A stretch of 64,000 nucleotides of DNA from Streptococcaceae bacterium AF77-01CM03A (lineage in GTDB: Bacteria; Bacillota; Bacilli; Lactobacillales; Streptococcaceae), in NCBI GenBank assembly GCA_027665725.1, contig JAQDDS010000004.1, positions 62,001 through 126,000 on the forward strand, in the 5' to 3' direction. Made by a program: the position numbers and the translations under genes. The notes beneath the pieces were generated by a model, which worked only from the letters and a program-made list of their open reading frames with translations, was not told the DNA's origin and made no database searches. How positions within the stretch are numbered: the stretch's first letter is position 1; each line of letters starts with the position of its first letter. Positions 26,120-53,134 of the stretch are shown piece after piece.

Positions 26120-27517
<1,398 letters not shown>

Positions 27518-27546: not shown

Positions 27547-27657
27547 AATAAAAGCAATAGAAATGATGGTCAAAGCTCATGGATGTTGCAGGCTTTTTTG
27601 TCCTGCACTTCTTTGGAGTTTTGACTGTTTTTGTGTCGTTTAAGGGAAAGGACAAGA

Positions 27658-42317: not shown

Positions 42318-42860
42318 ATGGCAAATCGTTTAAAAGAAAAATATCTTAATGAAGTAGTTCCTGCTTTGACAGAACAATTTAACTACTCATCAGTGATGGC
42401 TGTTCCTAAAGTGGATAAGATCGTTTTGAACATGGGTGTTGGTGAAGCTGTATCAAACGCTAAAAGCCTTGAAAAAGCTGCTGAAGAATTAGCACTTATC
42501 TCAGGTCAAAAACCACTTATCACTAAAGCTAAAAAATCTATCGCCGGCTTCCGTCTTCGTGAAGGTGTTGCGATCGGTGCAAAAGTTACCCTTCGTGGTG
42601 AACGTATGTACGAATTCTTGGATAAATTGGTTTCAGTATCACTTCCACGTGTACGTGACTTCCACGGTGTTCCAACAAAATCATTTGACGGACGCGGAAA
42701 CTACACACTTGGTGTGAAAGAGCAATTGATCTTCCCAGAAATCAACTTTGATGACGTTGACAAAACTCGTGGTCTTGACATCGTTATCGTAACTACTGCT
42801 AACACTGACGAAGAGTCACGTGCATTGCTTACAGGCCTTGGAATGCCTTTTGCAAAATAA
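42318..42860 (+). CDS. rplE: Ribosomal protein L5
   Basis: This 180-aa protein starts [17 protein letters not shown] after AAAGGAG and ends [11 protein letters not shown]. Binds 5S rRNA. Confidence 0.98.
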
Positions 42861-42877
42861 TATAGGAGGTATAACTA

Positions 42878-43063
42878 ATGGCTAAAAAATCTATGATTGC
42901 TAAGAACAAACGCCCAGCGAAGTTCTCTACTCAAGCATACACTCGCTGTGAACGTTGTGGACGTCCACACTCAGTTTACCGCAAGTTTAAACTTTGCCGT
43001 GTTTGCTTCCGTGAATTGGCATATAAAGGTCAAATCCCTGGTGTAACAAAAGCATCTTGGTAA
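42878..43063 (+). CDS. rpsZ: Ribosomal protein S14, zinc (type Z) form
   Basis: This 61-aa S14 has two CxxC pairs, CERCGRPH and CRVC, which bind zinc. The zinc-free long S14 is not in this window. AGGAGGT lies just upstream of ATG 42878. Confidence 0.97.
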
Positions 43064-43069
43064 TAACAT

Positions 43070-43174
43070 GATACAAAGAGCGTAACAACCCCAGCAAAAA
43101 TAGGAGAATTGGTGCAGGAGCAATGCTCCAAGACAAATCTATCTTTTTTGCCCAGGTTGTAGCTCGTGTTCAAA
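43070..43174 (+). repeat. Intra-operon element A upstream of rpsH
   Basis: Begins GATACAAAGAGCGT (43070-43083), contains AAAAATAGGA and a hairpin GGAGC-AAT-GCTCC (43117-43129), and ends TAGCTCGTGTTCAA (43160-43173). It shares ends and centre plan with element B at 43680-43784. The rest of the gap to rpsH has a hairpin TTCAAA/TTTGAA (43169-43194) and GCAAGT-GCA-ACTTGC near 43233. Confidence 0.65.
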
Positions 43175-43274
43175 TGAGATTATCTTGTTTGAATGTGTCA
43201 ATACTATCTGAGCACAGCTCAATCATTAACTAGCAAGTGCAACTTGCAAACTACTAGTAAGAGGAGAAAAATAA

Positions 43275-43673
43275 ATGGTTATGACTGACCCAATCGCAGA
43301 CTTCCTAACTCGTATTCGTAACGCTAACCAAGCAAAACACGAAGTACTTGAAGTACCTGCATCAAACATCAAAAAAGGGATTGCTGAAATCCTTAAACGC
43401 GAAGGTTTTGTTAAGAACGTAGAAATCATCGAAGATGACAAACAAGGCATCATCCGTGTATTCCTTAAATACGGAGCAAACGGTGAACGAGTTATCACTA
43501 ACTTGAAACGTGTTTCTAAACCAGGACTTCGTGTCTACAAAAAACGTGAAGATCTTCCAAAAGTACTTAACGGTCTTGGAATTGCTATCCTTTCAACTTC
43601 AGAAGGTTTGCTTACTGATAAAGAAGCTCGCCAAAAGAATGTTGGTGGTGAGATTATCGCTTACGTTTGGTAA
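43275..43673 (+). CDS. rpsH: Ribosomal protein S8
   Basis: This 132-aa protein starts [17 protein letters not shown] after AGAGGAG and ends GGEIIAYVW. In other bacteria S8 controls the spc operon by binding its mRNA. It is bracketed by elements A and B. Confidence 0.97.
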
Positions 43674-43679
43674 AATCAA

Positions 43680-43784
43680 GATACAAAGAGCGTCATGGGC
43701 AATGTGAAAATAGGAAATCTGACAAAGAGTGTTAACACTCTAGGAAGATTTGTCTTTTTCACACAGACCATAGCTCGTGTTCAA
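43680..43784 (+). repeat. Intra-operon element B downstream of rpsH
   Basis: Begins GATACAAAGAGCGT (43680-43693), contains GAAAATAGGA and hairpin AGAGTGTTAACACTCT (43726-43741), and ends TAGCTCGTGTTCAA (43771-43784). AAATCT/AGATTT gives an outer stem. A further perfect hairpin TTTAGCTGAT/ATCAGCTAAA follows (43785-43810). Confidence 0.65.
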
Positions 43785-43839
43785 TTTAGCTGATTTACTG
43801 ATCAGCTAAATAGAGAGTAAATTAGTTTAGGAGAAAAAG

Positions 43840-44019
43840 ATGAAAGCTACTGAATTGAATGAAAAACTTATTGTTGCAGAAGACGCTTTGGCTGAATTGT
43901 CAAAAGATGACCTTGTATCTCTTTTATGTGAAATTGGTTATAGTCCTGCGGCTATTGATGTATTGACAGAATATCAGAAGTTTGTCAAAGCTTTTCGAAA
44001 GAAACTAGGTTTGCTCTAA
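43840..44019 (+). CDS. Small protein in spc operon, unknown (59 aa)
   Basis: ATG 43840 follows TTAGGAGAAAAAG, a good site. The product, MKATELNEKLIVAEDALAEL and on to FRKKLGLL, is helical and acidic, quite unlike the basic r-proteins around it. Length just misses ORF calling limits. It sits between rpsH and rplF where most bacteria have none. A similar small ORF is known in streptococci by recall. No function assigned. Confidence 0.75.
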   Translation: MKATELNEKLIVAEDALAELSKDDLVSLLCEIGYSPAAIDVLTEYQKFVKAFRKKLGLL

Positions 44020-44080
44020 TCCGAATGCCCCCGTGAAAACTGGCCGTCATGGCCTGACAATTTAACAGGAGAATAAAAAC

Positions 44081-44617
44081 ATGTCACGTATTGGTAATAA
44101 AGTTATCGTGTTGCCTGCTGGTGTTGAACTCACTAACAATGACAACGTTGTAACTGTAAAAGGACCTAAAGGAGAACTTACTCGTGAGTTCTCAAAAGAT
44201 ATTGAAATCCGTGTGGAAGGTACTGAAGTAACTCTTCACCGTCCAAACGATTCAAAAGAAATGAAAACTATCCACGGAACTACTCGTGCCCTTTTGAACA
44301 ACATGGTTGTTGGTGTTTCAGAAGGATTCAAGAAAGAACTTGAAATGCGTGGGGTTGGTTACCGTGCTCAACTCCAAGGAAACAAACTTGTTTTGGCTGT
44401 TGGTAAATCACATCCAGACGAAGTTGAAGCTCCAGCAGGAATTACTTTTGAACTTCCAAACCCAACGACTATCGTTATCAGCGGAATTTCAAAAGAAGTA
44501 GTTGGTCAAACAGCTGCTTACGTACGTAGCCTTCGTTCACCAGAACCATACAAAGGTAAAGGTATCCGTTACGTTGGCGAATATGTTCGTCTTAAAGAAG
44601 GTAAAACTGGTAAATAA
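44081..44617 (+). CDS. rplF: Ribosomal protein L6
   Basis: This 178-aa protein starts [17 protein letters not shown] after CAGGAGAA and ends [12 protein letters not shown]. Two similar halves as in all L6. Normal length. Confidence 0.98.
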
Positions 44618-51111: not shown

Positions 51112-51216
51112 TCAATTTTGTTGAGTGTTATGATGATGGAGCCCTGTGCTCTTAGTCTAGCTCTGGTCTACCGCTAGGACTTTTGTCCTAGCGGGAACAC
51201 TCATCATAAGATGGTA
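51112..51216 (+). other. Structured 3' region after rplQ
   Basis: Perfect hairpin CCGCTAGGAC-TTTT-GTCCTAGCGG (51171-51194). GAGTGTT (near 51124) can pair with AACACTC (near 51197), framing the hairpin. Could be a 3' UTR fold or a small RNA. No ORF. Confidence 0.55.
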
Positions 51217-53038: not shown

Positions 53039-53134
53039 ATTAAATAAAGACCTCCTAACTTTATTTAATAGAAATCCTAAACTTTTTCATAATAATCTCC
53101 TACAAAAGTCGCTCGTAAGAGTGGCTTTTGTTTT
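53039..53134 (+). ncRNA. CiaRH-dependent small RNA (csRNA type)
   Basis: From the predicted start, ATTAAATAAAG (53039-53049) pairs with CTTTATTTAAT (53059-53069) leaving loop ACCTCCTAA, with an exposed anti-Shine-Dalgarno CCTCCT at 53051-53056. A single-stranded stretch follows with a second TCTCCT (53096-53101). It ends in hairpin AAAAGTCGCTC-GTAA-GAGTGGCTTTT and a T-run. Length about 95 nt, in the known csRNA range. No ORF is present. Confidence 0.85.

Follow-up and report, generated by a model that had tools for sequence, protein, structure and literature searches.

Elements A and B at the rpsH locus

We analysed a stretch of 64,000 nucleotides (nt) from Streptococcaceae bacterium AF77-01CM03A (contig JAQDDS010000004.1, positions 62,001 to 126,000; hereafter the window, whose own numbering is used throughout), in which two related elements, A and B, sit in the spc operon between rplE and rplF and bracket rpsH. 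The features at this locus are:

42878..43063, + strand: rpsN, whose stop codon lies 6 nt before A (NCBIfam equivalog match above cut-off)
43070..43173, + strand: element A, sense orientation, left end 6 nt past the rpsN stop codon (motifs, fold)
43170..43192, + strand: a further, short hairpin that overlaps A at its right end (fold of 43064-43192)
43226..43274, + strand: rpsH leader with its own local Shine-Dalgarno sequence, AAGAGGAG (window sequence)
43275..43673, + strand: rpsH, 30S ribosomal protein S8 (NCBIfam equivalog match above cut-off)
43680..43784, + strand: element B, sense orientation, left end 6 nt past the rpsH stop codon (motifs, fold)
43781..43814, + strand: second hairpin overlapping the right end of B (inverted repeat I1 with arms 43781-43794 and 43801-43814; fold)

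Both elements carry an exact 14-nt left-end motif, GATACAAAGAGCGT (at 43070 and 43680), and an exact 14-nt right-end motif, TAGCTCGTGTTCAA (at 43160 and 43771), neither of which occurs elsewhere in the window without a mismatch, and AAAATAGGA is common to the two. The original prediction, made from the sequence alone, of two related elements with common ends around rpsH is borne out by these exact motifs, as is its statement that the central stem changes in sequence yet stays paired: we found GGAGC/GCTCC in A and AGAGTG/CACTCT in B. The outer stems likewise differ in a paired fashion, and the structure is larger than had been stated: over its entire length, each element forms a single long hairpin of -33.9 (A) or -35.2 (B) kcal/mol (z -4.1 and -5.1), a stability reached by none of 200 shuffles of either sequence.

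A dispersed family of hairpin elements

A and B belong to a family of dispersed, exchangeable hairpin elements of about 105 bp that is found throughout Streptococcus. A covariance model built from A and B alone (R1), to which these two sequences themselves match with 117.8 and 124.7 bits, hit 12 of 21 genomes. At least one copy is present in 11 of the 13 genus members shown, and one genome carries up to 59. Many copies form inverted pairs or tandem rows with a few bases between neighbours. A second model built from 82 copies (R2) was searched against the class, where 20 of 299 genomes were positive, 18 of them from the genus of the window; the 299 genomes include an unstated number of genus members, and weak matches may be lost at this search size. 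A pattern scan of named genomes gave at least 115 stretches, and the 80 listed all came from Streptococcus, from many species that include S. sanguinis and S. suis. Finally, a profile search (nhmmer) of 247 sequences, namely 246 fetched loci and the window, yielded 465 hits. Of these, 363 were full-length and 102 partial or weak hits were left out; with the additional requirement of at least 60 nt of flank, 157 distinct copies were obtained, with a mean guanine-plus-cytosine (GC) content of 40.7% and a mean length of 108 nt as cut out. Outside the genus, at least 10 copies were seen in a genome from another family of the order (G014; the two that were read, L011 and L023, are 120 nt long), and two in a more distant genome of the class (G246).

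The structure is conserved by compensating changes, as had been proposed. In an alignment of 82 copies (81 distinct), which includes A and B and was fitted to a model begun from them, so that it leans to their structure, standard pairs fill 97.2% of 2720 cells and double-sided changes occur at 29 of the 34 pairs. The covariation score is 0.543, versus 0.160 in shuffled alignments and at most 0.10 with slid partners, and none of 500 shuffles reached any of the five observed measures. Related copies beat shuffles more easily, but the effect is large and the control with slid partners stays low, which makes chance an unlikely explanation. Constant across the copies are both ends, the unpaired bases and those inner A/T-rich pairs that surround AAAATAGGA and TATCTTTTT, whereas the stems change freely.

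Probably the family is mobile and non-autonomous. Among the 247 sequences (whole genomes were not scanned) there was no copy in which a transposase or mobilising gene lies between the same ends. A scan for target duplications in 132 of the 157 copies gave a best excess of 5 matches of 6 nt, where 0.5 were expected, with smaller excesses otherwise; tandem copies could cause this signal. Copy L051 (4006-4111) lies in a prophage, Streptococcus phage Javan93, before the gene of the tape-measure protein, so phages can carry the element. A search of phage and plasmid records with B found matches in two S. canis prophage records and a partial match in one S. agalactiae record within the plasmid collection; a phage or plasmid origin was considered, and these few matches did not provide a carrier that explains the family.

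Position of the copies and displaced Shine-Dalgarno sequences

The two ends of the element are placed very differently with respect to genes. In 65 of the 157 copies a start or stop codon is no more than 12 nt away from the left end, which carries GATAC; for the right end this holds in 3. These 65 copies were filed as 34 in antisense orientation directly before a start codon, with the GATAC end mostly 4-8 nt from it, and 31 in sense orientation directly after a stop codon, as is the case for A and B. A later fetch of 40 stretches from eleven genomes contained 24 distinct copies, with the left end at a gene boundary in 12 and the right end in none; this fetch is not fully independent, since genome G048 is also in the gene panels described below and 9 of the 24 copies were already in the set, and among the 15 new copies the numbers are 7 and 0. 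Of 181 copies, a single one falls within a long open frame.

Some assignments are less certain than others. Among the 34 antisense copies, two precede short, doubtful frames (L221 and L178) and a third, L051, precedes a start upstream of the annotated one. Conversely, an overlapping frame placed L031 (purB) and L138 among the sense-after-stop copies, whereas by eye their place is ahead of a start codon. Besides those taken up in the panels, further genes behind an antisense copy match, over their first 60 residues, the parC, uvrA, proS, pheT, prfA, serS and dehydrogenase E2 families; thrS and prmA were recognised as affected genes by eye only, with no family match. Several of these housekeeping genes are generally expected to be essential.

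The leaders of four such genes were compared in panels, each consisting of the 30 best matches to one query among the genomes with a match (59 for dnaJ and deoD, 58 for purB, 48 for carB, and 57 for the rpsH panel used below); the panels therefore lean to the relatives of the query. A copy lies between the Shine-Dalgarno sequence and the ATG in 29 of 30 deoD, 29 of 30 dnaJ, 18 of 30 carB and 5 of 30 purB leaders, 81 of 120 in total. One dnaJ leader (L294) could not be placed, and three copies that are decayed by eye (L331, L368 and L393) were counted as absent. Using the sequence of the 16S tail, we calculated anti-Shine-Dalgarno pairing energies for the 22 nt before the ATG. The median is +0.3 kcal/mol in leaders with a copy (n=81, best -6.5), versus -9.7 in those without (n=39, range -12.1 to +1.0). 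On the far side of the hairpin, in contrast, all 81 leaders have a site of -9.6 or better (median -10.3); in control windows at like distance, -9.6 is reached in 3 of the 39 copy-free genes. The 34 antisense copies from the profile search, whose genes overlap with those of the panels, behave in the same way: a local site of -7 or better is present in none and a far site of -9 or better in 29, compared with a far site in 7 of the 31 sense-after-stop controls.

The copy-free leaders show what such a gene start looks like without the element. In carB 12 of 30 sites have no copy (two look decayed by eye) and in purB 25 of 30, and in these the Shine-Dalgarno sequence is mostly at normal distance. 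In two carB leaders without insert (L385 and L377), the upstream leader motif that by eye is common to the insert-bearing leaders is followed by AGGAG adjoining the ATG; in the leaders with insert the same place reads AGAAAGGAG, starting 142-159 nt from the ATG (five leaders compared). The Shine-Dalgarno sequence found beyond the hairpin is AGAAAGG, and the medians of its linear spacing from the ATG are 110-139 nt in the four panels. Spacing was also measured around the hairpin in 30 antisense copies that have a start codon within 12 nt, with L031 and L138 included. In 14 of them the element directly abuts the Shine-Dalgarno sequence, leaving 4 nt between AAAGG and the closing stem and another 2-7 nt between that stem and the ATG. 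When the leaders are folded, the graph distance between Shine-Dalgarno sequence and AUG is at most 18 in 66 of 76 leaders (range 8-29). Many deoD and dnaJ leaders (L307-L336 and L277-L306) also seem to contain, next to the Shine-Dalgarno sequence, a small hairpin whose 3' arm is the 5' arm of the element, as judged by eye and from some of the folds. Competition between this small hairpin and the element may be a possible switch, judging from these predicted folds.

Exchange of unlike elements at one site

The identity of the elements does not follow that of the genes that they precede. For deoD, 48 gene pairs reach 93% identity or more over the first 300 nt, and in 26 of these the elements are less than 70% identical; one pair has 99% identical genes and 63% identical elements. 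In the reverse case, the elements are at least 85% identical in 41 of 173 pairs whose genes are below 88%. The dnaJ leaders have the same pattern (25 of 43 and 116 of 324), and it is weaker in carB (4 of 18 and 4 of 114). This mismatch between gene and element identity indicates that one and the same site can exchange its element for an unlike one. In several leaders, remnants of further element types were seen by eye upstream.

The sites of A and B are similarly variable. Among the 30 rpsH loci, site A holds a sense copy of the A/B family in 18, a sense and an inverted copy in 8 and a second hairpin family in 3, while 1 is empty; at site B the A/B family is present in 12 and the second family in 16, and 2 are empty. 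This second family, about 108 nt long and likewise with changing stems, also lies just past stop codons, here those of rpsN or rpsH (L257, L249 and L269), and has a partial match in the window at 26187-26238 (E 3.7e-5).

A and B themselves split no ribosome-binding site, and rpsH has its local Shine-Dalgarno sequence. They are likeliest copies that are tolerated between genes, with a possible effect on messenger RNA (mRNA) stability. The core of the rpsH leader (ATTAACTAGCAAGTG to CAAACTACTAGTAAGAGGAG) can be made out by eye in the relatives inspected, even in those that lack A, and the leader at 43226-43274 is a candidate for an autoregulatory site of its own.

Possible function and alternative explanations

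We assign a probability of about 60% to the reading that A and B are copies of a dispersed, exchangeable hairpin element whose antisense copies split ribosome-binding sites, and that the affected genes nevertheless work through folding. The GATAC end of the element would settle at a gene boundary, either in sense orientation after a stop codon or in antisense orientation before a start codon, and in the latter case the insertion would separate the Shine-Dalgarno sequence AGAAAGG from the AUG. If the hairpin closes at its base, the ribosome would meet the two side by side, and with the hairpin counted as nothing the spacing would be near normal in the abutting class. The split anatomy of these sites is well supported; that ribosomes initiate across the hairpin we infer from the analysis of the leaders. 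The fuller proposition, that an exchangeable element inserts repeatedly between the Shine-Dalgarno sequence and the start codon of housekeeping genes, which are then translated across it, so that strains swap a mobile split site that is perhaps tunable by the small competing hairpin, is put forward more tentatively, and we would rate its chances at slightly below even.

If this is true, many streptococcal genes have a two-piece ribosome-binding site, and start-site predictors and annotations would misjudge them. The copies would form a natural library of hairpins with which to study how ribosomes read folded leaders, and the repeat would be an example of one that persists within essential control regions by folding itself almost out of sight. 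Likewise, the exchange of unlike elements between near-identical genes offers a way into the question of how such repeats move.

Several observations weigh against the split-site reading. In the other 16 of the 30 copies measured, 19-39 nt lie in between, often with a small extra hairpin. Shuffled inserts bring the Shine-Dalgarno sequence and the AUG as close together in 478 of 1520 cases, from which the real inserts are poorly separated. The antisense copy L051 in the prophage has a local Shine-Dalgarno sequence for the annotated start. Furthermore, with one constant G-U pair set aside, G-U occupies 2.5% of the cells and A-C 1.85% (157 copies; the tRNAs in the fetched loci were too few to serve as a reference). 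G-U is thus barely more frequent than A-C, which means that pairing holds almost equally on both strands and points to pairing at the level of DNA. The sense strand of the element is also the one that folds better, in 29 of 34 antisense-before-start copies, 29 of 31 sense-after-stop copies and 82 of 92 other copies. Since this also holds for copies whose antisense strand is the one present in the mRNA, selection for the hairpin across the family is probably not for translation. In our reading no individual mRNA is the target of this selection; it would act on the sense strand of the element itself, perhaps while the element spreads.

An alternative is that the elements are neutral dispersed repeats and that the genes behind them start without a Shine-Dalgarno sequence at an AU-rich open start, the upstream AGAAAGG being a leftover, a standby site or the site of a leader peptide. 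AU-rich bases do adjoin the ATG, shuffled inserts are nearly as compact as real ones, and a possible start codon lies 5-13 nt past the far site in 31 of 76 distinct leaders. However, a leftover should decay, and the strong far site is kept in all 81 leaders though the insert varies freely; copy-free genes as a rule have a strong local site (median -9.7). As to leader peptides, which would be possible in those 31 of 76 leaders only and are not uniform among them, the frames are not alike in where they start, how long they are or where they lie, 45 of 76 leaders have none, and we rejected this version. Taken as a whole, we regard the neutral explanation as unlikely, though it is the one that we take most seriously beside the split-site reading. 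The near-normal spacing that remains in the 14 abutting copies when the hairpin is left out could also mean that the element is excised from the transcript and its ends joined, as with an intron, which would restore the Shine-Dalgarno spacing. We know of no bacterial machinery that excises such hairpins. Excised elements could live within genes, whereas the single copy in a long open frame noted above is the only one of its kind among the 181, and the extra 19-39 nt in 16 of the 30 measured copies do not fit either; we find excision very improbable.

For A and B in particular, the original prediction had suggested a regulator-binding or processing site copied inside the spc operon, for instance one bound by S8 or L5. 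Both elements are structured and adjoin rpsH within that operon, which would suit such a function. This part of the prediction was not supported, as the family is dispersed through streptococcal genomes beside many unrelated genes, and in relatives the sites of A and B may be empty, be taken by the second hairpin family or have gained an inverted copy. Such ready replacement would not be expected of a site for a ribosomal protein, and we therefore attach hardly any weight to this explanation. Much the same applies to an intrinsic terminator or attenuator: in the sense orientation the inner hairpin is followed by a conserved TCTTTTT, but no terminator-like site was found within 42860-44100, and both elements are internal to the spc operon, with genes on either side, which makes a terminating role highly implausible.

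Other features of the window are mentioned for completeness. A frame of 59 amino acids lies between rpsH and rplF (43840-44019); it has a local Shine-Dalgarno sequence and no NCBIfam match. A match to the S15-leader model at 43782-43896 scores 26.1 bits against a gathering score of 39.5 and is probably due to chance. Known RNAs in the window are csRNA1 (53039-53131), Spd-sr37 (27555-27621) and the L17 downstream element (51122-51194).

Comparison with known systems

A match to a known transposable repeat had been named as a result that would speak against the original prediction. A and B do behave as a dispersed repeat, but no described repeat that matches them was found in Rfam or in papers. 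No Rfam family covers A or B, and the two weak matches below the gathering score adjoin the elements only. Among the top-ranked results of searches in open-access literature, and in the papers cited here, we found no description of the A/B family or of repeats between a Shine-Dalgarno sequence and the AUG, a coverage that mostly excludes subscription papers.

Miniature inverted-repeat transposable elements (MITEs) and REP/REPIN sequences are short, non-coding, dispersed hairpin repeats that occur in tandem and as inverted pairs. The A/B family resembles them in being short, dispersed and frame-free, in its tandem and inverted pairs, and in the empty sites of relatives (carB and purB). It differs from them in that the stems covary while the internal loops are fixed, and in that no convincing target duplication was found in the copies scanned and no gene-carrying relative in the 247 sequences. 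The attC sites of integrons are imperfect hairpins with conserved unpaired bases and variable paired stems that occur in tandem arrays. These hairpin traits and the tandem copies are also seen in the A/B family; on the other hand, its end motifs differ from the attC consensus, and its tandem copies lie a few bases apart with no gene between them.

Among streptococcal repeats, BOX, RUP and Stre-1 are listed for pneumococcus in an excerpt of PMC2267715. According to excerpts of PMC3049150, RUP and SPRITE have GC contents of 27.5% and 28.1%, SPRITE consists of an 18-bp duplex followed by a U-rich tract, and BOX, RUP and SPRITE are almost absent outside S. pneumoniae and S. mitis, with the exception of BOX-like repeats in S. 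suis. Like BOX, RUP and SPRITE as described in these excerpts, the A/B elements are small, interspersed, hairpin-forming repeats of streptococci that lie mostly between genes. They are not AT-rich as RUP and SPRITE are, having a GC content of 40.7%, and they occur in many Streptococcus species; this separation is drawn from the published descriptions of composition and range.

With respect to translation, the closest parallels are single genes. For the T4 genes 38 and 25, an excerpt of PMC3014915 describes how structure shortens the distance between Shine-Dalgarno sequence and AUG from 22 to 5 and from 27 to 11 nt, and thrS of E. coli uses a split ribosome-binding site (PMC3936740, in part). 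In these cases, so far as the excerpts describe them, a Shine-Dalgarno sequence (T4) or an upstream binding region (thrS) is far from the AUG in linear sequence, with RNA structure in between. The leaders studied here are similar: the Shine-Dalgarno sequence is too far away in line, with medians of 110-139 nt, and none of the 81 leaders has a local site beyond -6.5 kcal/mol. Unlike in these single genes, however, the intervening structure is here a repeated and replaceable element of about 105 nt, with a putative function and present in many genes.
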